Source: Terebella lapidaria
Lineage: Eukaryota; Annelida; Polychaeta; Terebellida; Terebellidae
Reading direction: 5' to 3'
Assembly (NCBI GenBank): GCA_949152475.1
Contig: OX424560.1
Span: 3,472,001-3,536,000 of the forward strand
Length of the DNA stretch: 64,000 bases
The position numbers were made by a program, and so were the translations under genes. The notes beneath the pieces are model-generated. The model saw only the letters and a list, made by a program, of their open reading frames with translations, was not told where the DNA came from and ran no database searches. The first letter of the stretch is position 1. Each line of letters starts with the position of its first letter. Of this stretch, positions 2,705 to 29,790 are shown piece after piece.

Positions 2705-4486
2705 GGTTACCGGACCTATGGTCCGATAACCTATTGGCATGGCGTTGCGTCCGTCGTCGTCGTCCACATTTTTATCTTTTTTGTTTACGGGCGAATTCTT
2801 CTGAAATTTTGCACAAAAATACTTAAAAATAATTCAAGAAGGAGGTATTTTTTTAGTTTTTTGATTTTCACATTTTTTTCAAAATGGCGGCCGTTTTCGA
2901 CGAAAAATGCCTGATTTTGGAATTTTGGTGGCCATTTTCTCAAAATCTGTTCAGTAACTTTTTTTCTTTTTGATACATAACACTCCTGATATGTACTCCT
3001 ATGATGACTATAAATTTCGTTGCGCTTGAATCGCTCGAAGTGGACCATTTTGGCCCAAACTCGGCCCAAATGGGACTTTCCCATGTTAAATTCTCCTATG
3101 CTTTATAATGGGACAGATTATGCCTAATATCTCACTTAATATTGAGATTAGAGACTAGGAATCAATTGTGGACATATAGGAAATGATATATGCTGAATAT
3201 TCTCGTGACCTTGAATTTGACCTCTGACCTCAATTTCAAGGTCAGAGCACAAAATGGCTGATATCTCGCTTATTATCGACTCTACAGCTTAGGAATCAAT
3301 TGTGGACATATAGGAAATGATATAATGCTGAATATTCTGATGACCTTGAATTTGACCTTTGACCCCATTTTCAAGGTCATAGGACAAAATGACTAATATC
3401 TCGCTTGTTATCGACTTTACAGCTTAGGAATCAGTTATCAACATATAGGAAATGATATATGCAGATTATTGTCATGACCTTGAATTTGACCTTTGACCTC
3501 ATTTTCAACGTCACAGGACAAAATGGCTAATATCTCACTTATTATCGACTCTACAGCTTAGGAATCAATTGTGGACATATAGGAAATGATATATGCTGAA
3601 TATTCTGATGACCTTGAATTTGACCTTTGACCTCATTTTCAAGGTCACAGGACAAAATGGCTAATATCTCACTTATTATCGACTCTACAGGTTAGGAATC
3701 AATTGTGGACATATAGGAAATGATATATGCTGAATATTCTGATGACCTTGAATTTGACCTTTGACCCCATTTTCAAGGTCATAGGACAAAATGACTAATA
3801 TCTCGCTTGTTATCGACTTTACAGCTTAGGAATCAGTTATCAACATATAGAAAATGATATGTGCAGATTATTGTCATGACCTTGAATTTGACCTTTGACC
3901 TCATTTTCAAAGTCACAGAACAAAATGGCTAATATCTCACTTATTATCGACTCTACAGCTTAGGAATCAGTTATGAACATATAGGAAACGATATATGCAG
4001 ATTATTGTCATGACCTTGAATTTGACCTTTCACCTCATTTTCAAGGTCACAGGACAAAATGGCTAATATCTCACTTATTATCGATTTTACAGCTTAGGAA
4101 TCAATTGTGGACATGTAGGAAATTATATATGCTGAATATTCTTGGACCTTGAATTTGACCTCTGACCTCATTCTCAAGGTCCAAGGACAAACTGGCTCAT
4201 ATCTTGCTCCTCTATTGACTGTATAGATTGGGAATCAATTGTGGACATGATATAGAAAATGATATACACTGAATATTTTGATGACCTTGAATTTGACCTT
4301 TGCCCCTTCATTTTCAAGGCCACAGCACAAAATTGCTAATATATCGCTGATTATTGAATTTACAGCTTAGCAATCAACTGTCGACATGATATATGCTTAA
4401 TGTTATATATGCTGAATATTCTCTTGACCTTGAATTCAACCAGTGACCTGGCTAACATCTAAAATATTAAACATTGTCCGGTAACC
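2705..4486. mobile_element. Non-autonomous TIR element flanked by TA
   Basis: The left end GGTTACCGGAC and right end GTCCGGTAACC form an 11-bp perfect terminal inverted repeat, with TA on both sides (2703-2704 and 4487-4488). The left end also holds a subterminal near-palindrome, GGTTACCGGACC-TAT-GGTCCGATAACC. The 1,782-bp body contains a minisatellite (3110-4440) and no transposase-like ORF. The related copy B lacks this DNA at the equivalent point (about 8360), which supports an insertion. TA target duplication fits Tc1/mariner-like and some other superfamilies; I cannot assign one. Confidence 0.75.
3110..4440 (+). repeat. ~133-bp minisatellite with clustered nuclear-receptor half-sites
   Basis: About ten tandem units of roughly 133 bp. 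Each contains the block TGACCTTGAATTTGACCTTT followed by GACC, and usually a downstream TTTTCAAGGTCA. The consensus unit therefore carries TGACCTTGA (inverse of TCAAGGTCA, the ERR/NR5A-type extended half-site), TGACCTTTGACC (inverse of GGTCAAAGGTCA, a DR1 element as bound by HNF4/RXR) and a facing TCAAGGTCA. Divergence is highest at the right end. Any binding is inferred from known motifs. Confidence 0.8.
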
Positions 4487-7251: not shown

Positions 7252-9790
7252 TTGTGTCACGGGTTTAGTGCAAAATTTTCTCCATGTAAGATTTTAGAAG
7301 GTATTCCTACATACTGACGTAATAGTATGTTGGTCAAGTGGTACAGTACGATCGGTACAAAACGATATCACGTGTCAGTCACGTGACTCATGATCAGTCA
7401 AACAACACACTGAACACCCCATCGAACATGATTTGAAATTGTACTCAAAGAATGTTTTGTTTTCTGAATTGTTATAACGAGTTGGAACAAAAAACCGCAT
7501 TGTCTGTAAAATGTATTCGCAAGTGTAACATTTTAATATAATTATAATAACAGATGGAGAAATAGTGTCATAATTCAAAGTAAAGAACAATGCAGAGTAA
7601 TTGGAATAATGTGGTGATAACTGGTTTGTTCCTAGTCACAACCATGTGATACTTTTGGTATCAAAATCGAAACCACTTACGCATCACATGAATGGAGTGG
7701 CCAGAGTGGAGTCTGGTGAACCCTATGATGGGAAAGGCTTGATGGGGAAGTCAATTTGGCCACGTTTGGCACATTTGCCTTGTATCCAATTTGCTTGATT
7801 GGTCACTCATTGCTGGCGGACGTTAAATCTGTTTATGAGGATACCATCAACTCAGTAGCTTTCTGGCTTGTGATTATGTACTTGTCATATATCTGTTCCA
7901 TGGGGTTTGTTTCAGTTTTCTAAATTATTTTCATAGGTTGTTGGGCAGTTGTATACTAATTCCATCAGGTGTACAGTAGAAACAACTACATTTAACACAC
8001 TGTCTGCCCCTGATGACACCAGTGTGTCTTTGGATAAACTATTTGTTCGGGTTTTGTTTCTATTGCAAAAAGGAGAAAAAAAACATAAAATCAAACCCCA
8101 AATATATAAGCTTGGGGACCGAGTTCTTTCTTGTTTAGTTTCACGATATTAGTGTATTGACAACAATGATAATATTTTCTTACGTCAACTGTAACACAAT
8201 ACGCCTTATAATGTACGTCATTTAATGTGCATATTATAATTTGTCATATCAACGTATTTTGTTTTAGATCATGTCTTAGTTCACTGATTTATAATATCCC
8301 ACGCGATTAGTCAGCCAGATTCAGCCTTTAATGTGCACATAAGTGGCCCTAAATATCCTCACGAATATTTTCCTCATGGCCCTGGGTGGATACCAGCCTG
8401 TATATTATTCATGTCGTCATGCATGTTGACCTATGTGAAAAGTAATTCTACTCCGTATGATCAGTTAAGATAAGAAATATCAAAGAAATTATGTGAGTCC
8501 TACATGCTATGTGTATATCTGTGGTTACATACGGCTGTATATGAAAAACACATCATCGACCCAACACTCACAGTCACCTGAGATCAAATTCAATATTACT
8601 CGTAATTCAATAATACTGCATGGTAGCCATCCTTGTACAAAGTATGAATAGAAAACTACTGAAATATTTGAAAATAAATATATATATATATGAATTCAAA
8701 GCTGGAACAAGTGGGATATTTGCATAACAGGGTCCCGTATGCTCATGTCCAATGACAATTTGATAAAGAAAAAAAAACATTAATCAGCTAGCAGAGTTAA
8801 GATTTTTGAAATGATGTCAAGTGTCTCAAAAGAGACATTCAAGGTATATATAACCCGACCCGACTGTAGGACAGCTGATATTTTCCGCCTTTGTCTGTGT
8901 TTGACCAATCACTTGCCAGTATTCACACCACTTGGTTCGACAAGTATCGGAACGTGACTTTTCCTCAGTTGTTACATCATCACTCCAAACGGTCATCTTA
9001 TCATTAGGTCATAGTCCAACAAATTGAACAAAATTATCGTTACACGAACAAAGGAATCTCACCCAGTCAATCTCGACCTGGTGGGCTGAAATATATGGTT
9101 TATCACTGCTCAATCACTGCAGATTTTTTAAATGATGTCGAGTGTCTCAAAAGAGACATTCAAGGTATATATAACCCGACCCGACTGTAGGACAGCTGAT
9201 ATTTTCCGCCTTTGTCTGTGTTTGACCAATCACTTGCCAGTATTCACACCACTTGGTTCGACAAGTATCGGAACGTGACTTTTCCTCAGTTGCTACATCA
9301 TCACTCCAAACGGTCATCTTATCATTAGGTCATAGTCCAACAAATTGAACAAAATTATCGTTACACGAACAAAGGAATCTCACCCAGTCAATCTCGACCT
9401 GGTGGGCTGAAATATATGGTTTATCACTGCTCAACCAGGCAATGGATGATTGGTGTATTGCAAATCAGTCGTATACGAAAACACATTTTTGCCATCCTGT
9501 AATAATGAATATTGAACATGTTGTTTTCGACATTTTGATTGTGAGGTCTGGATGGTGAGCTCACGAAGTTCGACATATAGTTGAAACAGTGGATCCCCAA
9601 AACAATTGATATGTATAATACATTAGAGTTGATATTTACATATATATATGTAGGTATACGATAATCCATCTGCACCATTGATGAGTATGTACTTCTTGAA
9701 GAGCAACTAAAGTCAGAAATTCTGATGTCACGAGCTGAAGTGTTGAAAATGGACCCCCATTCTGTGGACGATTTATCAGGAAAACTGAAA
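7252..9790 (+). repeat. Copy B of the old diverged direct duplication
   Basis: Matches copy A (1836-5580) in order and orientation but lacks the TIR element. It carries a private internal tandem duplication at 8801-9436, and no coding frame is conserved with copy A. From 9791 to the LTR element at 10045 nothing further is recognisable. Confidence 0.75.
8801..9436 (+). repeat. Recent 321-bp tandem duplication
   Basis: Two adjacent units, 8801-9121 and 9122-9436, begin GATTTTT and run nearly identically through AACCCGACCCGACTGTAGGA to CACTGCTCAA. Only a few substitutions are visible, so it is much younger than the surrounding duplication. Confidence 0.85.
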
Positions 9791-10044
9791 TTTTCCATCT
9801 TCAACTACGCCTTTTTTTTCATGATGAAGTATCATGCAAACATCCTCATGGCTGTAATGGCCACTCAAATTTTCCATTCGACTAAAATTATTGCCTCCAC
9901 TTTAATATCGGTTAATTTTATGTTCAGGTCGTTTACTAGATACTTAACGAATTGTTCACAGTCCAGTTGAAGTACATGATACTGATCAAGGAACAAGTTG
10001 TGCATGACTTGAATATAATTCTATGTATATGTGACGTTTGTAGG

Positions 10045-10781
10045 TGTGGCGATTTTGCCCTAAGCACGCGGCAGGTGATTGTAAACATAAAAGCCATTTA
10101 TGTGGCCTTTTTGTACTTGGCCTTGTTTTGACATGCTCCGTTCGAGCGTGCGTTGCCACGGCGACGTATTGTAATTTACGCTCCAGTAAACTATAACAAT
10201 GGATCGATTAAACCTCGCGTGCGCCCTACAGTTTCTGGTGTATTATATATACACTGGAAGCGACTCGATCGAGGAGATTGTCCGAGAGATCGAGACTAGG
10301 ACGCACACGAGGCTCGCCATGAGCTTTGTGTTCCCTGGGTCTGAGTAGTGGGCTCCTAGAGCCCTGGGGACGATTTCCATGGGGAGGCCCGGGCTGGGAG
10401 AGACAAGTTGCTGACTCGGGGGCCTTCGGCCCTGTGGATCGCCAGCTCTCTCCCTTCCCGGGACGTGTGACAGAGGCTCTGGCCAGCATGTCGGACTGTA
10501 CGGGGTTCCGTCCCCGAGGCAGACCGCGGCTCGCCAGGCCCCGCCAGTTAACACCGTAGGGATGAACTAGTTTCTGAACGGTGTCCGTAGGCCTGGGAGT
10601 GTCGGGTGGGCTGTTACCTGGTTACCGTTAATGCTGAAGTAGTTACCGTGTCCGCAGCGACCTCCGGTGAGCGGCCCTGCCGCAAGGATCTGGAATAGCG
10701 GATGCGCGTCCGCAAGGACTCGGATGAGAGAGGACTATCCTCGAGGATCCCGAAGAGCGGACGGTAGTCAATAACTTTACA
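10045..10781 (+). repeat. 5' LTR
   Basis: Starts TGTGGCGATTTTGCC and ends AACTTTACA. It is near-identical to 17120-17856; differences seen include AAAGCC/AATGCC, CTCCG/CTCTG, TGTGGAT/TGAGGAT, ATCTGG/ATCCGG and GTCCGC/GTCTGC. Short ORFs within it are not considered genes. Confidence 0.92.
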
Positions 10782-10782
10782 T

Positions 10783-10800
10783 TGGTGCCGTGACCAGGAT
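10783..10800 (+). other. Primer binding site
   Basis: TGGTGCCGTGACCAGGAT begins one base after the LTR and starts with TGG. The same sequence is found on the minus strand at 58728-58745 in the large element. The tRNA species was not identified. Confidence 0.85.
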
Positions 10801-10895
10801 CAGTCCGACAGTGTTCCATCGCAGCCTACCGTCACAGCGTTGTAGCCTCCTTAGTCCCTGGGGATCGCCCGCTCCTCAAGGACATCTTAGGAAAA

Positions 10896-13052
10896 ATGAC
10901 GAAAGAAAGAGACAAAGCCGCAGATAAGGCAAAGGAACCCAAGGGGAGGGATAAGGGTGGAAACGTCGCGGACCACACCCGGTCGCGCGACAGCCACTGT
11001 GAGACGTCTTCGGATGACTCCGGTGGCCGGAAGGAATGCGCGGAAACCTCCGTGGACAAGACCCCGTCCGCGGAGACGACTCCGGCGTCCCTGGCTCCGT
11101 CTTCGGACGTAGAGTCGAGCCCCGCGGGGCCGCAGCAGGAGTTGTCGTCAAGGCCGGACCTTGACGTGTTAGGCGCGGTGGGTGGAGCTGGCAACGGCTC
11201 TACGCCGCGCCCGCCCGTGCCCAGAACAGATCCGTGGCAAATGGCACCCTTCCGTAAGACGCCTTCGGGCGTCCGGAATCGAGCGCCAATGCATGCGGGT
11301 CCTTCTGGACAAGCGGACCAGCCTTACCAGATGCCACACCCGGCCGGGTGGACTCCTTCGAGAGCCTCCGGCATGGGTTCTGGTCGGTCCGCACCGGGTA
11401 GTGTGGTGGATCAGCTCACCGACGCACTTGGCGAGCTGGCCCCTCTAGGGCGCTATGACCGCGCCCGGTCGCCCCATCAGGGACGATCAGACCGGCGGAA
11501 CCGCTCCCCCTCTCCGCTGTCACAAGGCAACTCGGGGCCTTTGACGGAGAGGGAGAGGTGGCTGATATCCGAGGCGCTTGTTCTGTTCAAGCGGAATCAG
11601 CCGCCTTCGAGCGTTGACCCGTCGGCCATCCTAAGTCCGGGGATGTCTGGGCCAGTAGCCCCTCCCCAAGTCCTGCCGAGTCCGCAGGCGCCAGTGGCCC
11701 CCGTTCCGACGGTTGGAGCGCAAGCCGCGTGGCCGACTTACCCTGGCACGTACAGTGTGTCGGACGGGCAGTGGCAACAGGCGGCTTCGGCCCCAAGCTT
11801 TGCCGCCCCTTCTGGAGCCTACCCAGTAGGTTCGATGGGAGCCCCGCCCGCACCTAGCCAGAGTGGGTTTTTAGCGGGAATGACCCCGGCGGCAAACGTG
11901 AGCTTCCCTGCTCCTATGTCCGCGGCGTCGATGTTTGCTCCGGCAGACTCCGCCGCAGGCGCAGGAAGTGCGCGGAACTTGCCGCTGTACACGGACGACT
12001 CCGGAGCCGGGACCGCACGTCGGGCGCGTAGCAAACGCGATGACGGGCCCGATCACTCTTCGTGGCGGAAACGGTTCAACGGGGATAACGCCGACTTGGA
12101 GGACTACTTGCTCCAGGTATGGCGTACCGCCGTGTACGAAGGATGGTCCCAGCATGAAGCTGGACACGTCCTCGCGGGGAGCTTGGAAGGAAAAGCTCTC
12201 CGCGTGATGCCGTGTCTGCCGGTGGGAACAGTGACGTTCGGCGAGGTTGCTCGTCAACTTCGCCTGCTGTTCACGCCGACGACCAATCGGCGGCAGTCTG
12301 AACGAGAGTTCAAGGCGCGTACCCGCCAGCCGACTGAGTCCGTGACAGACTATGCGTTCAACCTACGCATACTCGGCCGGAGAGCTTTTCCGGACATGGA
12401 CTCCAGACGGTTTGAGACGATGCTGATAGATCAGTTCATCGATGGCCAGCCTTATCACCTAGCGTACGGGCTGGCCACCCATGAAAAGCGATCGATGGAG
12501 GAGGCAATAGACTCCGCGCTTGCGTTTGAGGTGGCTGTCCGCCCTAGACAGTTGCCTCCAGCCCCGGCTCCGGCCTCGGCTGTACCCGCGCAGGCGGCGA
12601 CTCCTCCTCCGGTCAAGGCATCGCAGGTAACCCCATGGCGGGACCCGGTCGTCCGGGAACCCGCCAGGGAACCTACCCAGCAGTGGGTTAGTGCGCCGAC
12701 ACCCTCTACAGGGGCGCCCGCACATGCGGCACCAGTCGCCGCGCCGTGCTCGCCTTCGGACGAGTGCGACATGGAGGAATACGACCTCGGCGCCGCGCAG
12801 ATGATTGCGCACTGCGCCGGGATCGAAGCTCCGGGACCCGCAGAATGTTGTGCGTTCACCTCCGGACCAGCCCAGAACCGTCCCTGCTACTTCTGCGGAA
12901 AGCAGGGACACTTTTGGCTGAAGTGTCCGGAGTTGTTGGAACGCCTGCGGTCGCGCGGATACCAGGGAGCCCTCCCTGGCCCGCAACGGAGGAATTCCTT
13001 CCGGTCTGGTCCTCCGGGACAACAGAACCGGAACCCGCGACAGGGAAACTAG
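10896..13052 (+). CDS. gag: Gag polyprotein with one CCHC zinc knuckle
   Basis: A 718-residue ORF starts at the first ATG after the primer site and ends at TAG 13050-13052. Residues 1-110 are charged and disordered, rich in K, E, D and S. Residues ~110-370 are proline/serine/alanine-rich. Residues ~390-560 look like a retrotransposon Gag capsid region (WRKRFNGDNADLEDYL, REFKARTRQPTESVTDYAFN, FIDGQPYHLAYGL). A zinc knuckle CYFCGKQGHFWLKC (C-x2-C-x4-H-x4-C) sits near residue 665, followed by a basic tail. Gag assembles the cytoplasmic particle that packages element RNA. The last codons form a slippery site for the -1 shift into protease. The frame is fully open, consistent with a young copy. 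Confidence 0.9.
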   Translation: MTKERDKAADKAKEPKGRDKGGNVADHTRSRDSHCETSSDDSGGRKECAETSVDKTPSAETTPASLAPSSDVESSPAGPQQELSSRPDLDVLGAVGGAGNGSTPRPPVPRTDPWQMAPFRKTPSGVRNRAPMHAGPSGQADQPYQMPHPAGWTPSRASGMGSGRSAPGSVVDQLTDALGELAPLGRYDRARSPHQGRSDRRNRSPSPLSQGNSGPLTERERWLISEALVLFKRNQPPSSVDPSAILSPGMSGPVAPPQVLPSPQAPVAPVPTVGAQAAWPTYPGTYSVSDGQWQQAASAPSFAAPSGAYPVGSMGAPPAPSQSGFLAGMTPAANVSFPAPMSAASMFAPADSAAGAGSARNLPLYTDDSGAGTARRARSKRDDGPDHSSWRKRFNGDNADLEDYLLQVWRTAVYEGWSQHEAGHVLAGSLEGKALRVMPCLPVGTVTFGEVARQLRLLFTPTTNRRQSEREFKARTRQPTESVTDYAFNLRILGRRAFPDMDSRRFETMLIDQFIDGQPYHLAYGLATHEKRSMEEAIDSALAFEVAVRPRQLPPAPAPASAVPAQAATPPPVKASQVTPWRDPVVREPAREPTQQWVSAPTPSTGAPAHAAPVAAPCSPSDECDMEEYDLGAAQMIAHCAGIEAPGPAECCAFTSGPAQNRPCYFCGKQGHFWLKCPELLERLRSRGYQGALPGPQRRNSFRSGPPGQQNRNPRQGN

Positions 13053-13086
13053 ATCCGGACGTGGTGGCGACCAACACTACGTCCGG
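13043..13086 (+). promoter_or_regulatory. -1 programmed ribosomal frameshift signal at gag/pro boundary
   Basis: The heptamer G GGA AAC (13043-13049) is in the correct gag phase and abuts the gag stop TAG. After a 5-base spacer comes a perfect 8-bp hairpin, CCGGACGT (13055-13062) with ACGTCCGG (13079-13086) and a 16-base loop. X XXY YYZ plus short spacer plus stem is the standard retroviral -1 frameshift arrangement. The downstream protease frame is the -1 frame, as required. Confidence 0.85.
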
Positions 13087-13555
13087 GGATAGTTGTTCGG
13101 TGGCAAACGATGCCGCCCCACCCGCTGATGAGCAGGACGAACCCCAAGTAGATATGACTTCTCCGGAAGTAGTCCTTGGAGATCAGTCCAGCTCCTCCGC
13201 GGCTGAGGCGGATGGCGAGGACTCCGTAGATGAGCCCAGCGCGTGCGAAAGGTATCGCCCTACCTGCGCGCTGGTGAGGGACCCTTGCTGGTACCTGCCC
13301 CTGTCCTTCGGACGGGAGCCGGTCCGGTTCCTCGTAGACTCAGGCTCGGAGGTGACCCTCGTGGCCGCCGGAACGTTTAGGAAGGAGCCCGCGCTCCGCA
13401 ACCTCGAGTTGCGGGATCCCGGACCGTATAAGCTCTACGGAGCGGGAGACAACCGCATCCGTATCCATGGCATCATCGATCTGCCTATTACCCTTGGGGA
13501 CAAGGTGTATCTGACAGAGGCGATCGTGGCGGATATCAGCCGCGGCAGCGGGTGA
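13049..13555 (+). CDS. pro: Truncated aspartic protease read by -1 frameshift
   Basis: The frame is -1 relative to gag and is open from upstream of the shift site to TGA at 13553-13555. After a linker of about 80 residues rich in D, E, S and A comes the retropepsin active-site motif FLVDSGSEVTLV, where D-S-G is catalytic, and then GIIDLPITLGDKVYLTEAIV, which aligns with GLIDLPIQVG in the minus-strand element. The ORF ends soon after VADI, about where a flap or dimer-interface segment such as the GMNFF region would follow, so the protease is incomplete. Retropepsins act as dimers to cut Gag and Pol. The truncation coincides with loss of pol. Confidence 0.75.
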   Translation, partial: LDPDVVATNTTSGDSCSVANDAAPPADEQDEPQVDMTSPEVVLGDQSSSSAAEADGEDSVDEPSACERYRPTCALVRDPCWYLPLSFGREPVRFLVDSGSEVTLVAAGTFRKEPALRNLELRDPGPYKLYGAGDNRIRIHGIIDLPITLGDKVYLTEAIVADISRGSG

Positions 13556-14062
13556 CGCTCGTTCTCGTCCGGATCGTACCTTACAATATGCGGTCCGGCC
13601 GGAATGACCGGAACCCCGGCCTCCTTCTAAGAAGGGGGTCGTATATTACATGCGCAACACTTGTGGTGGCTTTTAATTCCAATTTCATATTCATTGGATA
13701 AGGGCAATACGCCGTACAATGGTAGGCGTCCGGCCTGGACTCCGTCCGCGGGCAGCTCCGGACGTCCGCCGGCTATTGCTTTCACCATCTTTGGGCGCCT
13801 CTAGATTGGGCGCCGGTATGAAGGGTTCGCCCCCTAACCATTGAGGTTATGGACCATGCCGGCTCCGCGTCTAATCTATTGGCTCCGCGCTCCGGTAGTC
13901 GTTTGAGGGGGCTCTGGGCTGGACCGGGCACCGCTCCGCGGCCGGGCAGTACGTCGGGGTTGCTAGTAGGCGCTTTGCAAACGCCCATAGGGCGCCCGAT
14001 TGTCTGTCCGGACGTCATGGGTATGTCCGATCGCCCTGTAAGCGTGCCAGCGGCTATGGGGA
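13556..14062 (+). other. Pol-deletion scar and untranslated spacer
   Basis: No RT, RNase H or integrase motif is seen. The spacer is GC-rich with many CCGG words, holds an internal PPT copy (13629-13639) and ends in a pyrimidine-rich stretch (TTTTCTATCTCATTC, about 14077) upstream of the first accessory ORF. That stretch could serve as a splice acceptor tract; this is inference. Confidence 0.5.
13629..13639 (+). other. Internal copy of the polypurine tract
   Basis: AAGAAGGGGGT is identical to the 11-base polypurine tract next to the 3' LTR (17107-17117). It could act as a central PPT for second plus-strand priming, or be a scar of internal recombination during reverse transcription. Confidence 0.6.
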
Positions 14063-15688
14063 GTGATTTTGTTTATTTTCTATCTCATTCATTATTTATG
14101 GGAGGATTATAAGCCACATTATGGCCGTAGCCGTCCGGACACCGGTTCCGCCGAGAACTCCTCGGTGTCCACACCTGCGGAGTCTGGTCCGCACGACCAG
14201 AAGGCCCCTGGGACTTGGGCGGAGCAGGTTGACGCGGCTGAGGAAGCCGCATCCCAAGCGCCGCCTCAGGAACAGGAGTCTGGCTCGAAGGAGACCGAGA
14301 ACCGAGATGACGGGTTTACATCGCCCGTCTCTAGGCGTACTCACCGTCGAGCCCGAGAGATTGCCCAGAAGCAGTGGAGAGCCCAGCAAGAGCTGGAAGC
14401 CTCTGACCGCAGGCAATCTGAGGCCGGATCCGACCCGGACCCGGCCTCCTCGCCTCCGAAGAAGAAGAAGAAGAAGCGGCCCCACCGGAAAAAGAAGTCC
14501 GGCGGTCCCTCGCCTCAAACCGGATCAAAGTCCGGAGGACCTCAGCCGCTGGCGCCTAAGCCAGGCGGCCAGACAGGGTCCTCCGCCAAACCCGGAGACA
14601 CCAAGACGCCTAATCCCTCGGGATCTGGTGCGGGCGGCGCCTCCGCGGGATCCGGCCCGGGCGCGGGAGGTTCCAGTAAGCGGGTGCCTATCCAGGCACC
14701 GAAAGGAACCTCCTCTTCTTCTTCCTCCGGTACCAAGAAACCTACCGGAGCTGCGGAGGTGGGGTCGAGTCCAGTGGACCGAGGGCGTCCCGTGCCGAAG
14801 GAGGGAGATCTTCGCTTAGAACTCCTCCGGAAGCGCGCGGAGAAAGACGGGGTCCACCTGTCTGACGCCGCACTGGAAGCGGGACGGCGGTCCTTCGTTG
14901 CGCAGCAACAGAGGGCCGCGCCCCCACGCGGGAAGAGTGTGCCCCGACAAACCAGGTCGGAGAATCGTTCGGGGGCGGCCAAAAAGAAGAAACGGTCGTC
15001 CTCGGAGCAGCCCTCTATCCAGAGGCTGCGGGCCGAAATGGGCCCCGAACTCCCTGGAGTCCGTCAGGGATACATGTTCCTCCCGCGGTATGGCAGGGAT
15101 CCGCAAGGGCGCCGCACAGCGGCGGCCGGCGCGGCGGCCGACACGCCTTTTACACGGCCTCGTCCACTCACAGACGAGGAGCGTGTCGGGTTGCCGCCCG
15201 AGACAGAGGAGGGTGTAATATGCCAACTCTGTCCGGAATCCCTGGACGGGTATGAGGACCCGCACCTTGCGCTCAACCGGGATCGTAAGTATCCTTCCTA
15301 CGACCACTTGAGTCGACATATTGCGGGGTACCACTACCCCTGGATGAAAATGTTCGTTTGCAAGAGGTGCTACTCCAGTAGACCTCAGCAACGATTTTTC
15401 GCCAGTTTGGAGGCCCTTAATAATCACCGCTCGGGTGCACACCGTGGTGAGGGACTTCACACCGTTGGTGATGAATTGGGGCCTGTATTCAATTTTGGAT
15501 ACATTCCACCGAGGGTGGCATCGTTCATGACTACGTCAGGAACGGTGAAGCACCGATTCTTTCACTGGGGTCCATGTCGCAAAGCACCGCCTCCCTGGAC
15601 TTGGACCCCCTCGACGCCACGGCGGACGTACGCCGGAGGCTCGGTCCCACGACCGCCAGCGTCTACGAGACTTTTCGCGAGTCTGTAG
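14063..15688 (+). CDS. Accessory ORF 1: disordered basic protein with paired zinc-finger-like C-terminus
   Basis: Open for 541 codons. There is no convincing ATG near its 5' end (the first codon of the frame is GTG), so the real start may come from splicing; it is undetermined. Residues ~20-300 are low-complexity, with lysine runs (PPKKKKKKRPHRKKK near residue 135; KKKKR near 310) that look like nuclear localisation signals. Residues ~390-475 hold two finger-like units: CQLC...HIAGYH, then directly FVCKRC...HRSGAH. The linking motif GYHYPWMKMFVC matches AYHFPLLRFFVC in the 351-residue ORF of the minus-strand element. No signal peptide or membrane segment is obvious apart from a hydrophobic run at the doubtful N-terminus, so it is unlikely to be an envelope. 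Function unknown; nucleic-acid binding is a guess. It overlaps the next ORF by 115 bases. Confidence 0.7.
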   Translation: MILFIFYLIHYLWEDYKPHYGRSRPDTGSAENSSVSTPAESGPHDQKAPGTWAEQVDAAEEAASQAPPQEQESGSKETENRDDGFTSPVSRRTHRRAREIAQKQWRAQQELEASDRRQSEAGSDPDPASSPPKKKKKKRPHRKKKSGGPSPQTGSKSGGPQPLAPKPGGQTGSSAKPGDTKTPNPSGSGAGGASAGSGPGAGGSSKRVPIQAPKGTSSSSSSGTKKPTGAAEVGSSPVDRGRPVPKEGDLRLELLRKRAEKDGVHLSDAALEAGRRSFVAQQQRAAPPRGKSVPRQTRSENRSGAAKKKKRSSSEQPSIQRLRAEMGPELPGVRQGYMFLPRYGRDPQGRRTAAAGAAADTPFTRPRPLTDEERVGLPPETEEGVICQLCPESLDGYEDPHLALNRDRKYPSYDHLSRHIAGYHYPWMKMFVCKRCYSSRPQQRFFASLEALNNHRSGAHRGEGLHTVGDELGPVFNFGYIPPRVASFMTTSGTVKHRFFHWGPCRKAPPPWTWTPSTPRRTYAGGSVPRPPASTRLFASL

Positions 15689-16593
15689 GCCAGGCGGTCG
15701 GCCATCGTCGCGATGGTATGGACCGGATCCCCGGTGACCCGGCGTTGGTGAACCTGCCGGTGACCCGAGCCATTCGTGACTTGGGGTCCGCAGGTGTAGC
15801 CGCGTTGGTCCGCGCTCGGGAGGAGCACCCCTGGGATCACCCCCAGCGTGGTCGACTCACCCGAGCGGCGGAGTACCTTGTGGCGGAGATGGACAGCTCT
15901 CTGGATCGGTTCAGCCGGTGCCGCACCGAGGCCTCCCGTGTCGCATGCGATCTCGCATACGACCAGGGCCTCATGGAAGGCACCCGGCGGAGCCTAGAGA
16001 GCTACCGGACTTTGTCGGCCGTCATTGAGCGGCGCGCGTTCGACCAGGGTCGGACCGCCGCTCTTGCTGAGCATTCCGGGGCGTCCGCCCCCGCCCCAGA
16101 GGTAGCCGCACGGATGGAGCACCTGGAGGCTGAGAATGAGCAGCTACGGCGTCGTCTTGACGAAGCCGAGGCCGCTCGGACTCGCCTACTCCAGGGCGTC
16201 GATGACCCCGAGTCGTCCGCCCTGAACCAGGCGGCTCTCCGGCGCGCGGATGCCGCTTTGGAGCTGGCCATCTACCCATACCTAGTCCAGGTGTGGGGAG
16301 AACGGACGGCCGGTCCACAGCGCACCCGCGATACGGTGGAGATGTTCCGCGCCATTGCAGATCTCGGCGCGACATCTCTACCGGCCTCCGTCGTGATGGC
16401 TCCGTCAGGACCCGGATTGCAGGGCTCACCGCAAAAGCCCCTGCAAGCTCCACCGGGCCTGCCTCATCCGCCCGTGCAGCCGGCTTTCACTATGCCGGCT
16501 CCGCTGCTTCCGCGGCATAGGGACTCGTCACCGCCGCCAGACCCCAAGACAGGCGGCACGGATGAGGAGCCCATGACGATGGGGGAAGGCTAG
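15574..16593 (+). CDS. Accessory ORF 2: alpha-helical coiled-coil protein
   Basis: Starts at a good ATG (15574) inside the end of accessory ORF 1, in another frame, and encodes 339 residues. Residues ~40-165 are predicted helical, with motifs NLPVTRAIRDLG, AAEYLVAEMD and LAYDQGLMEG. A clear heptad coiled coil, RMEHLEAENEQLRRRLDEAE, lies near residues 187-206. The tail is proline-rich. The order (NLP, helical region, AxYxxGL-like motif, coiled coil) parallels the C-terminal part of the 431-residue ORF of the minus-strand element, which suggests distant homology. Oligomerisation is likely; molecular role unknown. Translation could be by reinitiation, leaky scanning or a separate RNA. Confidence 0.7.
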   Translation: MSQSTASLDLDPLDATADVRRRLGPTTASVYETFRESVGQAVGHRRDGMDRIPGDPALVNLPVTRAIRDLGSAGVAALVRAREEHPWDHPQRGRLTRAAEYLVAEMDSSLDRFSRCRTEASRVACDLAYDQGLMEGTRRSLESYRTLSAVIERRAFDQGRTAALAEHSGASAPAPEVAARMEHLEAENEQLRRRLDEAEAARTRLLQGVDDPESSALNQAALRRADAALELAIYPYLVQVWGERTAGPQRTRDTVEMFRAIADLGATSLPASVVMAPSGPGLQGSPQKPLQAPPGLPHPPVQPAFTMPAPLLPRHRDSSPPPDPKTGGTDEEPMTMGEG

Positions 16594-17106
16594 GGTGCTA
16601 GCCTCGTCGCTGCACTTGTGCGGCGGCGTGCCGGAGTCGCTTCCGCGGCTCCGCCCTGCCTCAGACCCGTCCTGCAGATCTGAGGAGCCGGCCGGCAGGG
16701 CGGTCGGCAACATTCTCAGAGGTACTATCACTTTTGATCACTCGGTGTGTCGTTTTACAAAATTTCTAAATTTAAAGTCTAACCTTAAAGATATTCCAAA
16801 GACTCGACACACCGTCCTTTTACAACGGATGACCTTTCAAGGTCATCACACGGTTTTGGACCACCTCGGTCAAAATTTTAGCTTGTTTATTAGGATTTAT
16901 TCAAAATTGCAAAGCGCGTTATAGTTTACTCTGTAAGTCCGGGGGTAGTTCCCCATTCTTCCAAAAGGGACTCTTAAAGTCCTAGTGTTTGCGCCGTGAC
17001 TTCCGGGCGTTGCCATCTTGCCTTCTTCCGGCCTCCGCCATGCGAAGCCTTCGTCGGGTTTCGAGCATTTTGGGCTCGGGCGGAACATGTTGGGGACCAA
17101 CATTGT
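16594..17106 (+). other. 3' untranslated region of the element with two inverted repeats
   Basis: Non-coding. It contains a 10-bp inverted repeat, CGGTGTGTCG (16743-16752) with CGACACACCG (16805-16814), and a near-perfect palindrome GATGACCTT-TC-AAGGTCATC (16828-16847). Either may form RNA hairpins upstream of the PPT. Confidence 0.6.
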
Positions 17107-17117
17107 AAGAAGGGGGT
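17107..17117 (+). other. 3' polypurine tract
   Basis: AAGAAGGGGGT lies two bases (AA) before the 3' LTR TG. This is the expected primer site for plus-strand synthesis and is duplicated internally at 13629. Confidence 0.8.
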
Positions 17118-17119
17118 AA

Positions 17120-17856
17120 TGTGGCGATTTTGCCCTAAGCACGCGGCAGGTGATTGTAAACATAAATGCCATTTATGTGGCCTTTTTGTACTTGGCCTTG
17201 TTTTGACATGCTCTGTTCGAGCGTGCGTTGCCACGGCGACGTATTGTAATTTACGCTCCAGTAAACTATAACAATGGATCGATTAAACCTCGCGTGCGCC
17301 CTACAGTTTCTGGTGTATTATATATACACTGGAAGCGACTCGATCGAGGAGATTGTCCGAGAGATCGAGACTAGGACGCACACGAGGCTCGCCATGAGCT
17401 TTGTGTTCCCTGGGTCTGAGTAGTGGGCTCCTAGAGCCCTGGGGACGATTTCCATGGGGAGGCCCGGGCTGGGAGAGACAAGTTGCTGACTCGGGGGCCT
17501 TCGGCCCTGAGGATCGCCAGCTCTCTCCCTTCCCGGGACGTGTGACAGAGGCTCTGGCCAGCATGTCGGACTGTACGGGGTTCCGTCCCCGAGGCAGACC
17601 GCGGCTCGCCAGGCCCCGCCAGTTAACACCGTAGGGATGAACTAGTTTCTGAACGGTGTCCGTAGGCCTGGGAGTGTCGGGTGGGCTGTTACCTGGTTAC
17701 CGTTAATGCTGAAGTAGTTACCGTGTCTGCAGCGACCTCCGGTGAGCGGCCCTGCCGCAAGGATCCGGAATAGCGGATGCGCGTCCGCAAGGACTCGGAT
17801 GAGAGAGGACTATCCTCGAGGATCCCGAAGAGCGGACGGTAGTCAATAACTTTACA
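17120..17856 (+). repeat. 3' LTR
   Basis: Near-identical partner of 10045-10781, starting TG and ending CA, followed by the target duplication TAGG at 17857-17860. Confidence 0.92.
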
Positions 17857-18004
17857 TAGGCATGACTTGTTGTTGTGTTTTTGTCTGCCCAAAAACCCTG
17901 CCTCCTGATCGTATAGACTTTGGTAACTCCCGCTCGTTGTGATTCGAGAGCCGTCAATAAAAGGTGCTCACTATTTTCGGTGCATCACTCAGTAGCTTAA
18001 GCTA

Positions 18005-18803
18005 CAGTCACACCGGGACCCCGGATCGCCCCGGATTGTCCCGGACCTAAATCCGGGGTGGTAAATCCGGGAAGTAATCCGTAGCAGTCCTGGAAAGTCC
18101 TGGGTGTGTCAGGGTGATCCTGGGCAATCCGGGGAGTGACCCCGGCGTTTTTAAACTGTTTAAAATTGCCGTGATGGTCCGTGATGGTCCGTGGTGAAAA
18201 GTCAAATCGGGCCGAACCGTGTTGGAACCGTAGTTGAACCGTGACGGTCCGGGAAGTACCGTGTTGACACCGTAGTGGCACCGTGGCAATCCATAGTCAT
18301 CTAGGAAGTATATTCGGTCCTGAAGAACACTACGGACTGCCACGGACCACCCCGGATCTCGTCTGAGGTCAGGCAAACAATGGTCATCAACCCCAAAATA
18401 CGCTCCTTCTTATAGCAATCGGCTACGAACGGGACAGTTCGGGGTGGTCCGGAGTTGTCCGTGTTTGTGCCGGGGTGATCCGTCTTTGTGCCGGGTTGAA
18501 CCGGGATGGACCGTGTCATGACCGGGGTGAAACGGGATGGTCCGTGGTGATCCGTGTAGGCTCCGGGACCAGTCTTGCTAACACCGGGGTGGTCTGGGAA
18601 GCAATCCGTAGTTATACCGTGTTTATCCGGGGTCATCCTTCTTGGTGCCGTGATTATCCGTGTTGGCCTGCATTTGATTGCCATCGGACGACCGTTGACT
18701 GAAAAAAAAATGTCATTTTATCCCGGATTACCCCGGATTACAGTTCGTGTTGGTCCGGGAAAGTCCGCCATGATCCGTAGTGGATCCGGGGTTGGTGTGA
18801 CTC
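18005..18803. mobile_element. TIR element packed with degenerate CCGKG words
   Basis: The left end AGTCACACCGGGACCCCGGA and the inverse of the right end, AGTCACACCAACCCCGGATC, form imperfect terminal inverted repeats, flanked by TA (18003-18004 and 18804-18805). Nearly the whole body is a run of CCGTG, CCGGG and CCGTAG words spaced about 10-12 bases apart without a fixed repeat unit. No protein is encoded. A similar word array fills part of the element at 48501-49977. Superfamily not assigned. Confidence 0.65.
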
Positions 18804-18982
18804 TACCTTTACCGGCTTACTCAGGCAAGAATCAACTCAGACGTGAATAAACGAAGATTTATCAACATCAAATCAGCAACTTACAATGGAATTGTCGGTC
18901 ACCCACGTGACGTACAGATATGAAGTTCAGACATGGAGCACTGTATGATCACGTTAAAAATAATAGTGCACGAGGGCACAAT

Positions 18983-19144
18983 TTAAAAGAGTTCTTCGCC
19001 GAAGGCTTCACTCCGCCCGTCCCGTTGAATTTTCCTGTCCCGTTTAGTCGATTGGTTTCTCCAGGTAGTTAGTCGAAATCCCGCTGACTCAAAGGCCCTG
19101 AAGAAGGAGTCGTCCACATGGAGGTCGTCGAGTCCCTTGGTCAT
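18983..19144 (-). CDS. Short hypothetical ORF downstream of a TATA box
   Basis: ATG at plus 19142-19144, 53 codons, beginning MTKGLDDLHVDDSFFRAFES and ending in a basic stretch. It lies about 70 bases downstream of a strong TATA box (19213-19220) that is itself downstream of a 15-bp tandem repeat. I do not recognise the protein. It could be the first exon of a longer transcript or a chance frame in a transposon terminus. Confidence 0.25.
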   Translation of the reverse strand: MTKGLDDLHVDDSFFRAFESAGFRLTTWRNQSTKRDRKIQRDGRSEAFGEELF

Positions 19145-19212
19145 GGCAGTAACGATCTCCCCACGGTCGATGTCGCTATTGCAGTGCTCACTGAGCAGCC
19201 GTCCACTCGCCC

Positions 19213-19220
19213 TTATATAG
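19213..19220 (-). promoter_or_regulatory. Candidate TATA box
   Basis: The minus strand reads GGCTATATAAGGGCG, a close match to the metazoan TATA consensus in a GC-rich setting, with a tandem repeat upstream and an ORF downstream. It may belong to a solo LTR whose edges I could not find. Confidence 0.4.
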
Positions 19221-19297
19221 CCAGGATGGCAGCGCGCGCATCCTCGTCCGCGAACGACTCTTCCGCGATCGCTACCACGTGGAGAAGGCTGCATCTG

Positions 19298-19424
19298 CGA
19301 ACGGTTCTTCCGCGAACGGTTCTTCCGTGAGTACTCTTCCGCGAACGGTACCTCCGTGAACGGTGCTTCCGCAAGTGGTGCTTCCGCGAACGGTACTTCC
19401 GCGAATGGTGCCTCCGCCAGTAGT
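19298..19424. repeat. 15-bp minisatellite (TTCCGCGAACGGTRC)
   Basis: About eight units of consensus GCGAACGGTRCTTCC, mostly 15 bp and one 14 bp, with CpG-rich substitutions (GTGAACGG, GCAAGTGG, GCGAATGG). On the minus strand it sits upstream of the TATA box at 19213, as an enhancer-like array would. Confidence 0.8.
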
Positions 19425-19643
19425 CTTCTGTGATCACGTGACCGTTCCTAACGAACTTTTTTTGGCACGCTCCGTTGTGTTGGTTTTGTTACATATACAT
19501 GTCGGTAAAAAAGGCATTAAATATATTTCATCCATGTGTCCTCCGGAGCTACGAAATTCTGGTAATGTATGAGTTGGAGCAATTGTCTTATTTTAGTAAC
19601 CAGCCACTAAACTGGCTTTATTATTATTTGGTGTCTTCTTTAT

Positions 19644-21936
19644 TATTTGGTGTCTTCTATAGGCCTCCAAATCAATCATCTGAAGAACGTGACATATTTC
19701 TCACTGACTTCGAGTCATGTGTCATCGACGCCCTATCGGCTGGCGCAGATGCTGTCGTCATAACTGGAGACTTCAACGACCCTTGTCAAGATTGGCACCA
19801 TGACCATTCTGACAGTCCACTTCGAAATCGTCTGCGCGACCTCTCCACTTCGCGGGGATTAACCCAAATGGTGAGCGACCCAACCCATGTAAACAATCAG
19901 GGTCGGCCGGTCAATATCCTTGATCTGGTGTTTACGGACTCTCCTGACCTCATTCAGTCTGTAAATATTTTGTCGCATCTGCTCAACTGTGACCACTGTC
20001 CAGTGAGCAGCACATTGCGCCTTCCGTCCTACAATTGTAAAGCCTACTCAAGGGATGTGTGGGACTTCAACAGCGGTGACTTTGAAGGGCTCAACATCGC
20101 ACTTGCCAACATACCGTGGGAAGTTATGTTACTGAGTTACAATTCTACGGATGACAAGACAAGCGCTTATAGCCAGATGGTTATGGAAACGGCTAAAAAG
20201 TATATTCCACATCGCACTGTGACCATCAAAACTAAAGACAAGCCTTGGATGTCTGGTCGTTTGAAAAAATTAATTCGGAAACGCAACAGGTCATTCAAAC
20301 GTTATATGCGTACTAAAAGACCAGATCATTTTGACATATACCGCCGTGACAGGAACACGGCGTTAGCCGAAAATCGTCGCCTAAAGGCTAGATTTAACAA
20401 CAGATTATTGGACTCTGTCTCACACGGTGTAGCAGGCGATAAAAACTTCTGGCATTTAGCGAAGTGCATTATGGGTAGCAAATCTTTACCTGAAATGCCT
20501 ACAATCCTGACTGGATCAAATATTCCGGTGAGTGATGATGGGGAGAAAGCTGATATCTTCAACGAGTATTTTGCTTCCCAATGCCGATTTTCACAAGACA
20601 GCGAGGAAGATATGCTTCCTAGTTGTGATCCAAAGACCGAACACCGTCTGAGCTTAATTCAGTTTGATGTGGTCGATGTTTATAAAACTCTCTTGTCACT
20701 AAATACCAACAAAGCAACTGGACCTGACAAGATTGGTAACCGGCTTCTCCGAGAGTGTGCGGTGCCACTTGCACTGCCGCTACATATTATATTCCAATCG
20801 TCCCTTGAGAGTGGAATATTCCCATCTTGTTGGAAAACAAGTAACGTAGTTCCTGTTCACAAAAAGAACAGTAGACAGGATGTACGTAATTATTGACAAA
20901 TCTCTCTCCTGTGCAACTCTAGCAAAATATTTGAAAGACTGATCTACACTTCGCTGTATGCATATCTGATGGGGAATAACTTGTTAACCGAGAAAAACGC
21001 CGGTTTCAAAAAGGGAGATGGAACGATTTGTCAACTGATTTATCTCACTCACAACATTTACGAGGCTCTGGAGAAGGGATTAGAGGTCAATTTTGTCTTC
21101 CTAGACTTCACCAAAGCATTCGATCGTGTATGGCATGCTGGCTTGATATGTAAGCTTGCCAGGTTGGGTGTGTGTGGTCCATTATTTAACCTCATTCAGA
21201 GCTACCTTTCGGTCATTAATGGAGCGACATCAGGAGCACGACCTGTGACGGCTGGTGTACCTCAGGGATCAATACTTGGGTCTTTGTTGTTCCTTGTGTA
21301 CATAAATGACTTACCCGACTATGTAACCAGTAACATTAACATGTTTGCTGATGACACTGTTCTCTGGGTCATGACAGACGATCCATATGAAACTTCAACT
21401 CAGCTAAATGCTGATCTAGCTAATATCTCTGATTGGGCCAAAACGTGGCATATTACTCTGAATCCTGAGAAGACCGAGGTTCTTAACATTTCAACAAAAA
21501 AGCGCCAACCTGTTCGCCCATGCTTGACATTGGACAATGCAGTACTAACCGAGGTATCCTCACATAAGCACCTGGGCCTTACATTTTCCTCAGATATGTC
21601 GTGGAATGCCCATATTGATCTTGTCTGCAAATCTGCAGGGCAAAGGATCCATATACTGCGCAAAATGTCATACAAAATAAGACGAAATATGTTAGAAGTG
21701 CTCTTCTTGTCATATGTACGTCCCATCCTTGAATATGCTTCTATTATATATGACGGGCAATCCTCTTCAAATGACAATAAGCTCGAGCGAATTCAGAACC
21801 ATGCTGCACTCATATGCACTGGTGGCCTGTTCAACACTAGCCGAGCACGGCTGCTTGCTGACTTAGGGTGGGACACGCTCCAACATAGGCGGGAGGTGTC
21901 TAAATGTATTACCATGTATAAAATAATGCATGGTCT
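19644..21936 (+). pseudogene. LINE ORF2: endonuclease remnant and reverse transcriptase
   Basis: One frame throughout. The apurinic-type endonuclease is only partial: VFYRPPNQ, then VVITGDFND and NCDHCPVSS, with the N-terminal catalytic part missing. The RT palm motifs are intact: FLDFTKAFDRV, GVPQGSILG and FADDTVL, the last with the catalytic DD. One in-frame TGA (20894-20896) stands where RT proteins of this type usually read Y-R-P-I-S-L. The ORF then breaks at the LTR-element insertion. The protein would nick target DNA and reverse transcribe LINE RNA. Gene order and motifs point to the CR1/L2/Daphne group; the exact clade is not determined. Confidence 0.85.
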
Positions 21937-22185
21937 TGTCGCCGTTTGGAAGTAGACTCCATGACACACAGGTAGAATCAGTGCAGTTTATTCACAGTGT
22001 TGTATAATACAAGTGCGATGATGACTGTCAGACTGGCAAGTGGCAATTGAACTTGGCGCCAAAGCCTTTTATAGTATTTTCTTACAGTGGAAGTGACGTC
22101 ATTAGTGGAATTACCATACTACAACGAATATAACTACTGCTATGAACAACTTGAGCACAAACCCATAAATGAATACCCGGCTACA
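21937..22185 (-). repeat. 3' LTR of the small LTR element
   Basis: The plus strand starts TGTCGCCGTTTGG and ends CCCGGCTACA, matching 24110-24358. On the minus strand it begins TGTAGCCGGG and ends CGGCGACA, with a TATA box CTATAAAAGG around 22063-22072. Confidence 0.85.
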
Positions 22186-26231: not shown

Positions 26232-26235
26232 TTAA

Positions 26236-28749: not shown

Positions 28750-29190
28750 TGCATAGTTCTTGATGAACCTTCTGCGACAGTTGGCAAACCCAAGGAAAGG
28801 GAGGACATCTGTCAGTGCACATGGGTCCACTAGTCCTGGATTGCTTTCACCTTGTTAGGATCGACTCGAATACATTGACCACTGAATACGAAACCAAGGT
28901 ACATGTCTCACGTTGGAATATTTCAAACCGTTTTGGCTATAGGCACAAACTTGTAGTATGTATCCTATTCAGGACAGTTTCAAGGTTGGTGTACGCGACG
29001 CTTGGTGAAACATACGTCGATATGCTATCACATCATCAAGATCACACATACATTTTGTCCAAAGATATCCGCGAAGGATAGTCTCTATCAGCCGTACAAA
29101 ATTTACAGGGAATTGCTCAGCCCAAAGGGCATGACCTTGAATTGGTACAAACCCTTGCAGATGGGGAGGCAGTTTTTGACCTATCAGCTG
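28750..29190 (-). pseudogene. Decayed Ty3/gypsy reverse transcriptase fragment
   Basis: The plus strand aligns by eye, with gaps, to the RT region of the large element at about 42255-42660: TGATGAACC/TGATGAATCG, ACCTTGTTAGGATCGACTCG against ACCTTGTTAGGGTCGACACG, AACACATACAC against TCACACATACA, and ACTGGTACA against ATTGGTACA. On the minus strand this covers the area around the YLDD catalytic site and the following FLGF segment. It is full of stops and frameshifts and is much older than the neighbouring element. Confidence 0.7.
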
Positions 29191-29786: not shown

Positions 29787-29790
29787 CATG

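Follow-up and report, generated by a model that had tools for sequence, protein, structure and literature searches.

A zinc-finger ORF3 in env-less Ty3/gypsy retrotransposons of Terebella lapidaria: a possible self-encoded regulator with repeated candidate sites at its own likely promoters

RESULTS

Two LTR retrotransposons carry a third gene

The DNA studied here, 64,000 nucleotides from the annelid Terebella lapidaria (bases 3,472,001-3,536,000 of contig C6, in a genome of 761.6 Mb in 438 contigs; hereafter the window), contains two retrotransposons with long terminal repeats (LTRs), each of which carries ahead of its 3' LTR a third open reading frame (ORF), ORF3, that may encode a DNA-binding regulator of the element itself. 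The family A element (10045-17856, plus strand) is bounded by LTRs that are 99.2% identical and by the 4-bp target-site duplication (TSD) TAGG, and the family B element (59490-29791, minus strand) by LTRs that are 99.3% identical and by the 4-bp TSD CATG. In both copies the LTRs run from TGT to ACA, which together with the 4-bp TSDs agrees with the TG..CA ends and 4-6 bp TSDs of Ty3/gypsy elements. The protease, reverse transcriptase (RT), RNase H and integrase of the B element follow one another in the Ty3/gypsy (Metaviridae) order according to Pfam; family A pol was assigned in other copies by its similarity to B pol. An assignment of A and B to Troyka was rejected, as that group has CG..CG LTR ends and a 3-bp TSD (PMC12440569) and both termini and TSD differ here.

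A preliminary description of the window had reported two consecutive ORFs in each element. These ORFs lie where it placed them, inside the two LTR elements, and the additional module that it saw on the minus strand belongs to a tandem duplication of ~4.66 kb (30370-35036 and 35031-39697, 99.9% identical) that comprises the ORF3 module and the start of the 3' LTR. The reading of the two ORFs as a two-gene module was abandoned because the frames are continuous in other copies: both ORFs are pieces of a single frame that is interrupted in the window. Residues 1-433, 441-871 and 846-892 of an intact B protein are found in order, in shifting frames, at 38400-35746 and again at 33739-31085, and the A copy retains only the two blocks of residues given in Table 1.

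A search of the genome with the first B ORF gave at least 117 matches, which include two halves of one copy and two matches from the window itself; 75 have an open frame of at least 890 amino acids (aa), as counted by eye, 12 of them with one noted internal stop. The first A ORF gave at least 79 matches, the commonest frames being ~1,150-1,190 aa long. Since the searches for A, B and C score the best candidates only, all copy counts are lower bounds, and ORF3 matches in the genome number at least 117 for B, at least 150 for A and at least 150 for a third family, C, in which an ORF3 of 362 aa follows pol. Twenty copies chosen for long frames have a common ATG and encode 1,140-1,148 aa (eight A copies) or 891-894 aa (twelve B copies), and in the intact copies of both families the fingers and the heptad region share one frame. 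An LTR of the same family follows ORF3 in 12/12 B and 8/8 A copies fetched, in part as judged from the end of the sequence retrieved, and in all copies retrieved far enough (10 B and 3 A) pol precedes ORF3. The design of gag and protease followed directly by the module, which had been proposed for the plus-strand element, is therefore not a family trait, pol being merely missing from the window copy. We conclude that ORF3 is an integral part of the A and B elements, located between pol and the 3' LTR. Among the best 150 A matches, several close pairs of ORF3 finger regions lie in tandem (for example G000:C6:38752976-38754952 and C199:43683-45311), and two such pairs read as single frames of 1,612 and 1,627 aa.

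Families A, B and C have a primer-binding site in common

A and B are 62% identical in RT-RNase H and 26% identical in gag. The zinc regions of their ORF3s are 26% identical over 187 aa (E = 5e-5 for the pair), a similarity that extends beyond the fingers, and no blastn match over 80 bp was found between the two elements at E 1e-5, the short common primer-binding site aside. The earlier statement that LTRs and most coding sequence differ between them is borne out by the blastn and gag comparisons and not by RT-RNase H. By their RT-RNase H identity and common primer-binding site, A and B are sister Ty3/gypsy families.

The primer-binding site, TGGTGCCGTGACCAGGATC, which we take to be the complement of the 3' end of tRNA-His, is matched exactly at 903 + 894 places in the genome (reversed control, 0). 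Among 20 such sites sampled on contig C1, 13 were A-like, 6 belonged to family C, 1 to a family D and none resembled the B leader of the window. Within the stretch listed, the site lies 4-15 kb upstream, on the same strand, of 2/7 B, 6/7 A and 11/20 C ORF3 matches (random positions, 1.2%; opposite strand, 0 in A, B and C). Given the 2/7 matches and the absence of B leaders from the 20 sites, B copies with the exact sequence are few in this sample.

The integrase end of family C is 43% identical to that of A. In pairwise comparison, C ORF3 shows weak similarity to A (E 0.003) and none to B (E 0.13), and its fingers failed to align with the A and B fingers in a multiple alignment. All three families, and the Tramtrack structure described below, have an inter-finger spacing of H-x4-H-x8-C. 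The suggestion of a conserved lineage trait is upheld in the sense that a non-env third ORF with zinc and heptad regions occurs in at least three families with one primer-binding site, the C protein being only weakly similar. Of 598 candidates for C ORF3 in the genome the best 150 were scored, and all have an identical 66-aa finger region; because this identity holds in at least 150 copies, it points to a recent spread of C with an intact ORF3. No ORF3 was found at the family D locus (L075). The first candidate C locus (L074) carried a different gypsy pol on the other strand instead, two further C loci had no ORF of 110 aa (L079) or one short unrelated ORF (L078), and a divergent A copy sought for footprinting (L082) fell outside the element.

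ORF3 combines zinc units with a heptad region

In family C, ORF3 comprises, in this order, an acidic N-terminus (DEDFGDVPDFDLADFLPLE), an RS-rich basic stretch, two canonical C2H2 fingers, an acidic linker and a heptad C-terminus. Charge profiles show the same order in A, B and C, with a net charge of -11, -11 and -6, respectively, over the first 60 aa, followed by a basic stretch and then by the fingers. Two complete C-x2-C..H-x3-5-H units, as required of C2H2 fingers, are present by sequence in A and C. The paired finger of the preliminary description is accordingly complete in A, and also in C, and incomplete in B, where the second zinc unit lacks its second cysteine in 8/8 aligned sequences. 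Among solved DNA-binding domains, the C fingers matched Zinc finger protein 524 (E 1.6e-4, with no single stretch passing alone) and further Tramtrack (2drp, 0.0019), ZBTB7A (0.0053) and RADR-Zif268 (0.0091). By sequence, the PDB gave no match for A and weak coiled-coil matches for B. Pfam gave no match to ORF3 above its cut-off; C2H2 matches, and in B weak coiled-coil matches, lay below it, and C ORF3 had no Pfam coiled-coil match. The score of the best heptad window was reached by 7/100 shuffles in A, 1/100 in B and 0/100 in C, the C control being weak because few shuffles contain a proline-free window.

An identity as env protein or fusogen was ruled out, as no window resembles a transmembrane segment: the best 19-residue hydropathy is 1.34 in A, 1.04 in B and 0.52 in C, values that come from a hydropathy window and not from a dedicated transmembrane predictor. 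The lack of such a segment had been noted from the window alone. Likewise, an enzymatic ORF3 of the type known from bdelloid rotifers was ruled out, since neither DEDDy exonuclease nor GDSL esterase gave a Pfam match up to E 1 (for B, among the matches listed, 25 of 30 families). Short hydrophobic runs near acidic residues occur towards the N-terminus (L029 42-50, NPIVLTDEE; L021 104-112, GLVDVDIEL; L080 6-12, LQIIEIP), which we take to resemble SUMO-interacting motifs.

A comparison that the preliminary description had proposed, the ratio of nonsynonymous to synonymous substitution rates (dN/dS) across copies, gave 0.116 for B ORF3 over 66 pairs of 12 copies, whose selection for open frames biases the value towards constraint, and 0.488 for A ORF3 over 28 pairs of eight copies at low divergence (median dS 0.056). 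B ORF3 is under purifying selection.

A protein database of 5.8 billion sequences was searched by a method that finds only relatives sharing exact words. It returned no match to B residues 195-500 (2,716 candidates) or to a 13-sequence A+B alignment (8,000 scored), and for C ORF3 one match among 7,238 candidates, 99% identical, 365 aa long and located on a 1,767-bp ENA contig. None of 32 pattern matches in viral contigs was confirmed.

Family C carries repeat arrays upstream of two TATA boxes

Upstream of C ORF3 lies an array of a 15-bp repeat (L080, 105-220), in which 8/8 units contain CGTTCGCGGAAG exactly. It is followed by a TATA box, TATATAAG, at 289 and by the ORF3 ATG at 331 (the box lies at -42 from the ATG); L081 is identical to L080 across the 220 bp printed. 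U3 of the C LTR has 12 units that deviate from the core by two mismatches at most (L077, 722-945), with the TATA box CTATATAAGG after them, at 970. A third array, of 9 units, is located at the start of the gag coding region (L055), and unit number differs between arrays. A C-like LTR remnant in the window (Table 1) has 8 units within two mismatches (19245-19407), likewise upstream of CTATATAAGG.

The top 8-mer counts of the C LTR and pre-ORF3 pieces were reached in 0/50 shuffles of each. The exact array dimer occurs 1,220 + 1,252 = 2,472 times in the genome and the reversed pattern 0 times. In 13/13 C ORF3s, which are all those scored within the stretch spanned by the first 100 listed dimers, it is present at three places: both LTRs have it, and a further copy precedes ORF3, 335-604 bp ahead of the finger coordinate. 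Of the 100 listed dimers, 76 lie no more than 12 kb from one of the 13 ORF3s. A cis layout like that of foamy-virus Tas, in which one motif recurs in the LTR promoter and in a second promoter inside the element, ahead of the regulator gene, was found in family C, the C promoters being judged by TATA boxes alone; B lacks it, and the evidence from A is ambiguous.

The site predicted from the C fingers coincides with the best-kept block of the array

The numbering and rules of the finger code were taken from a 2024 review (PMC12264921). By this code finger 2 of C, with R at -1, D at -4 and R at -7, would read GCG. Finger 1 (R, N, T), which has 11 rather than 12 residues between its last Cys and first His, would read GAN, like TFIIIA finger 3 (K, N, T), which reads G and A and whose T is too short for the third base (PMC12264921). 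The predicted two-finger site is 5'-GCGGAN-3'. In a wraparound alignment of four arrays to their consensus, not anchored on GCGGA and giving 47-51 units per position, GCGGA is the best-kept five-base block, with match rates per base of 0.92, 0.98, 0.92, 1.00 and 0.96; one of the four arrays is coding, and units within an array are not independent. The A after GCGGA, at the N of the site, has a rate of 0.82, the preceding CGTTC has 0.85, 0.73, 0.79, 0.92 and 0.77, and the remaining positions are a G (1.00) and CAC (0.50, 0.94 and 0.51).

No 5-mer is commoner than GCGGA in the first 1,066 bp of the 1,915-bp pol-ORF3 gap of family A, where it occurs 22 times, compared with ~3.7 in shuffles (means of 2.6 and 1.1 for two parts, maxima 10 and 4). 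GCGGA clusters are seen in the two families with complete finger pairs and not in the family without, a pattern that, with three families, is only suggestive.

ORF3 types seem to be exchanged between backbones in family B

The twelve intact B ORF3s fall into groups that are 82-84% identical in protein between groups, L040 being 90-92% identical to B2. Between groups, dS is 0.036-0.066 for RT-RNase H and 0.83-0.93 for ORF3, with the exception of B2-B4 (0.344), where the low value is due to L040 being B2-like only up to ~+1.4 kb. Within groups, the dS values of RT-RNase H and ORF3 are 0.045 and 0.151 in B1 and 0.027 and 0.095 in B2. The 36 pairs of this comparison come from nine B copies for which pol was fetched; a tenth, L044, was left out on account of its pol deletion. 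In the same copies (L029-L040, L044-L053), ORF3 dS between groups is ~14-22 times that of RT-RNase H.

In a B1-B3 pair (L032/L039), a divergent island starts ~280 bp ahead of the ATG and extends to about +2.7 kb. Identity is 92-99% before the island and 90-99% from +2.7 to +3.4 kb, and the last two windows of the stretch compared are 81 and 68% identical. A special constraint on the pol-ORF3 gap of B was ruled out, as pol is equally identical; ORF3 is therefore the divergent part. Recombination thus seems to carry B ORF3 from one backbone to another, in L032/L039 along with its upstream region.

Other features of the window

Coordinates are collected in Table 1. The great length of the B element in the window results from two tandem duplications, that of the ORF3 module and a second one between the 5' LTR and gag (46616-58402; 5.9-kb units, 99.7% identical), which could be genuine or an effect of assembly. 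Each 5.9-kb copy contains a 163-bp satellite of ~8 units and a 200-bp inverted repeat. Antisense to B within the pol-ORF3 gap is a 161-aa ORF (38544-39029 and 33883-34368). Remnants of other copies, at 26233-27016 and 28739-29149, comprise an inverted copy of the B LTR (80-81%) and a piece with 66% similarity to B RT. Non-LTR retrotransposon frames, RT-like by eye, adjoin the C-like LTR remnant (19475-21955), and a 134-bp satellite of ~10 units and a 321-bp duplicate lie at 3120-4436 and 8800-9434.

Table 1. Features of the two LTR elements and a C-like remnant in the window
Feature	Position	Strand	Remarks
Family A 5' LTR	10045-10781	+	TSD TAGG at 10041-10044
Primer-binding site TGGTGCCGTGACCAGGATC	10783-10801	+	common to families A, B and C
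Family A gag	10896-13052	+	sub-threshold Pfam matches to Retrotrans_gag and CCHC; 26% identity with B gag
Family A protease frame	12692-13555	+	by-eye reading (LVDSGSEV); pol missing after it in window copy
Family A ORF3, first fragment, zinc region	14063-15688	+	residues 136-623 of intact 1,147-aa copy at 14123-15586
Family A ORF3, second fragment, heptad region	15574-16593	+	residues 812-1147 at 15580-16587; other frame of same gene
Family A 3' LTR	17120-17856	+	TSD TAGG at 17857-17860
Family C-like LTR remnant	18200-19480	-	84% identical over 618 bp
Family B 5' LTR	58747-59490	-	TSD CATG at 59491-59494
Family B gag frames	44323-46703	-	26% identity with A gag
Family B aspartic protease	43106-44365	-	Pfam
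Family B RT and RNase H	41458-43248	-	Pfam
Family B integrase	39819-41457	-	Pfam
Family B pol-ORF3 gap	38401-39818	-	~90-99% identical between B groups, last few hundred bases excepted
Family B ORF3, first tandem copy	35746-38400	-	frame interrupted; ~892 aa in intact copies
Family B ORF3, second tandem copy	31085-33739	-	within 4.66-kb tandem duplication
Family B 3' LTR	29791-30534	-	TSD CATG at 29787-29790

DISCUSSION

Our preferred reading, which we hold tentatively, is that ORF3 may be a self-encoded DNA-binding regulator that acts on repeated sites at the promoters of its own element, in the manner of Tas or VANC. Short sites repeated in the regulatory DNA of the element itself would be recognised by the two C2H2 fingers, oligomerisation through the heptad (coiled-coil) region at the C-terminus could allow the protein to occupy an array, and activation of transcription or protection from silencing might come from the acidic N-terminus or from a partner. 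In family C the sites would be the arrays of 15-bp units with the core GCGGAAG, upstream of the LTR TATA box and of the TATA box before the ORF3 ATG. ORF3 could then promote both its own transcription from the internal promoter and that of the full-length RNA, a feedback loop wired like that of foamy-virus Tas. Nuclear location, DNA binding, GCGGA as the site, oligomerisation, and activation or anti-silencing are inferences from the sequences, as is a like action of the A and B proteins through other sites. Of the functions considered in the preliminary description (nuclear import, RNA export, silencing evasion and target choice), silencing evasion is retained, with transcriptional activation beside or in place of it, as the cis repeats of C point to DNA binding at the element's own promoters.

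Two known systems provide the analogy. Tas/Bel1 of foamy viruses (Spumaretrovirinae) is a DNA-binding transactivator encoded near the 3' end. Its response elements are located in U3 and in a second, internal promoter immediately ahead of its own gene, TATA boxes are present, and the feedback is positive (PMC3798896, PMC8670036). Family C has the same cis layout with TATA boxes, but the A, B and C elements are env-less Ty3/gypsy elements whose regulator would have C2H2 fingers and a heptad region. VANC, an anti-silencing protein, is encoded by VANDAL transposons and targets tandem repeats of a short motif in the noncoding DNA of the same transposon (PMC10398659). Family C likewise pairs an element-encoded protein with short tandem motifs in its own noncoding DNA; VANC, in contrast, belongs to a plant (Arabidopsis) transposon family, and the likeness lies in the form of the sites. 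ORF3 may work like Tas or VANC, and we do not file it as a member of either group.

Several observations weigh against this reading. The array at the start of gag in C is not explained by promoters, and in B the LTR, gap and ORF3 hold no array apart from a two-copy AT-rich repeat; a k-mer search for B motifs returned CAAGGCCG 3-4 times, a count reached in 16-27 of 200 shuffles. The match between code and array is post hoc, the array having been seen before the code was applied, and a given 5-mer is expected by chance, on either strand, at ~3% (30/1024) in a 15-bp unit and at 1.6% (16/1024) in a 12-bp core. Two fingers do not explain the invariant G after the site or the well-kept A at unit position 14. 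In A, the 1,066-bp cut was chosen after the sites had been seen, and the remaining 849 bp of the gap have GCGGA once (1.3 in shuffles); there is no enrichment in the A LTR (4 vs 2.2), GCGGA is also enriched in A pol (26 vs 11.4) and A ORF3 (34 vs 15.0), and for the A fingers (R, H, S and N, A, S) the code predicts GGN plus a loose triplet rather than GCGGA. B shows no GCGGA enrichment in LTR (0 vs 0.8) or gap (2 vs 2.4). To these points must be added the missing cysteine of B, the heptad signal of A, which is not strong, and the lack of a Pfam coiled-coil match in C. Finally, position, layout and spacing argue for shared descent of C ORF3 with that of A and B, but a single origin of ORF3 in all three families is not proven, the similarity of C being weak to A and absent to B.

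Alternatively, ORF3 could bind the arrays and, like the VANC proteins of plants, remove or block silent chromatin over the element without itself being an activator. We consider such a sequence-specific anti-silencing role unlikely as the sole function, while noting that VANC targets are just such tandem short motifs, diverging between families, in the noncoding parts of the same transposon (PMC10398659), that C carries arrays of this kind at three places, and that the units contain CpGs, aspartate, which would read the C of GCG, being said to read unmodified cytosine (PMC12264921). The TATA boxes beside two of the arrays, however, fit a promoter role equally well. It is improbable that the arrays serve host transcription factors and that ORF3 has another job. 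The consensus unit contains TTC-GCG-GAA, and the TTCnnnGAA in TTCGCGGAA would be an example of a STAT-like site. Conservation, however, is higher in the central GCG (0.92, 0.98, 0.92) than in the TTC half (0.79, 0.92, 0.77) or at the last A (0.82), whereas a TTCnnnGAA site would show the opposite.

The arrays might instead be read in RNA, with ORF3 an RNA-binding accessory protein for packaging, export or translation. The gag-start and pre-ORF3 arrays lie in the genomic RNA, the 3' U3 copy should do so as well, and C ORF3 has its RS-rich basic stretch; two arrays, however, are upstream of TATA boxes and the listed finger matches are mostly to DNA-binding domains, and we regard this explanation as quite improbable. 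A factor for integration or nuclear import, bringing the preintegration complex to chromatin, would suit the location of ORF3 3' of integrase and its basic stretches but would leave the arrays inside the element unaccounted for, and appears very improbable. That the array is a functionless minisatellite spreading within C, ORF3 being kept for some other reason, might be argued from its presence in gag coding DNA and its varying unit number. It is hard to reconcile with uneven conservation within the unit, which peaks at the predicted finger site, and with three fixed places in 13/13 copies, and we think it highly improbable.

Third ORFs without envelope function are already known in LTR elements (PMC5408684, PMC11952523). 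Those of bdelloid rotifer LTR retrotransposons, of DEDDy, GDSL, coiled-coil (CC) and transmembrane (TM) types, are non-envelope, follow pol and include one type with a coiled coil (PMC5408684); they differ in that no DEDDy or GDSL match was found here, and the phrase 'zinc finger' is absent from that paper's main text. sORF2 of insect MDG1-group elements is, like ORF3, an accessory ORF in Ty3/gypsy elements without Envelope, located 3' of pol in some Lepidoptera, but encodes a transmembrane protein of 63-107 aa (PMC11952523), unlike ORF3 with its low hydropathy maxima. The two-finger domain of Tramtrack (2drp) shares with ORF3 the inter-finger spacing and an SNFxRH pattern in finger 1. Tramtrack, however, is a host transcription factor; it carries a BTB domain, to which ORF3 has no match. 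Our search of the open-access literature, which did not extend to Repbase or to most subscription papers, turned up neither a zinc-finger/coiled-coil ORF3 nor a Ty3/gypsy circuit that regulates itself.

In the usual view, transcription of LTR retrotransposons relies on factors of the host, while complex retroviruses, foamy viruses for example, are known to encode transactivators of their own and to carry the cis sites that match them. It is possible, if rather doubtful, that T. lapidaria harbours an env-less Ty3/gypsy lineage with a full self-regulatory circuit, made up of a zinc-finger regulator, an internal promoter and matching operator arrays at both promoters, whose recognised site can be predicted from the fingers, and in a related family cassette-swapped regulator types that outlast their pol backbones. 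If this is true, a Ty3/gypsy lineage of ordinary appearance, whose primer site is matched exactly ~1,800 times in one genome, would carry its own switch, and the predicted site would make that switch directly testable. Very old ORF3 types beside young pol would, moreover, make a case for asking what keeps the diversity of an element-encoded regulator.

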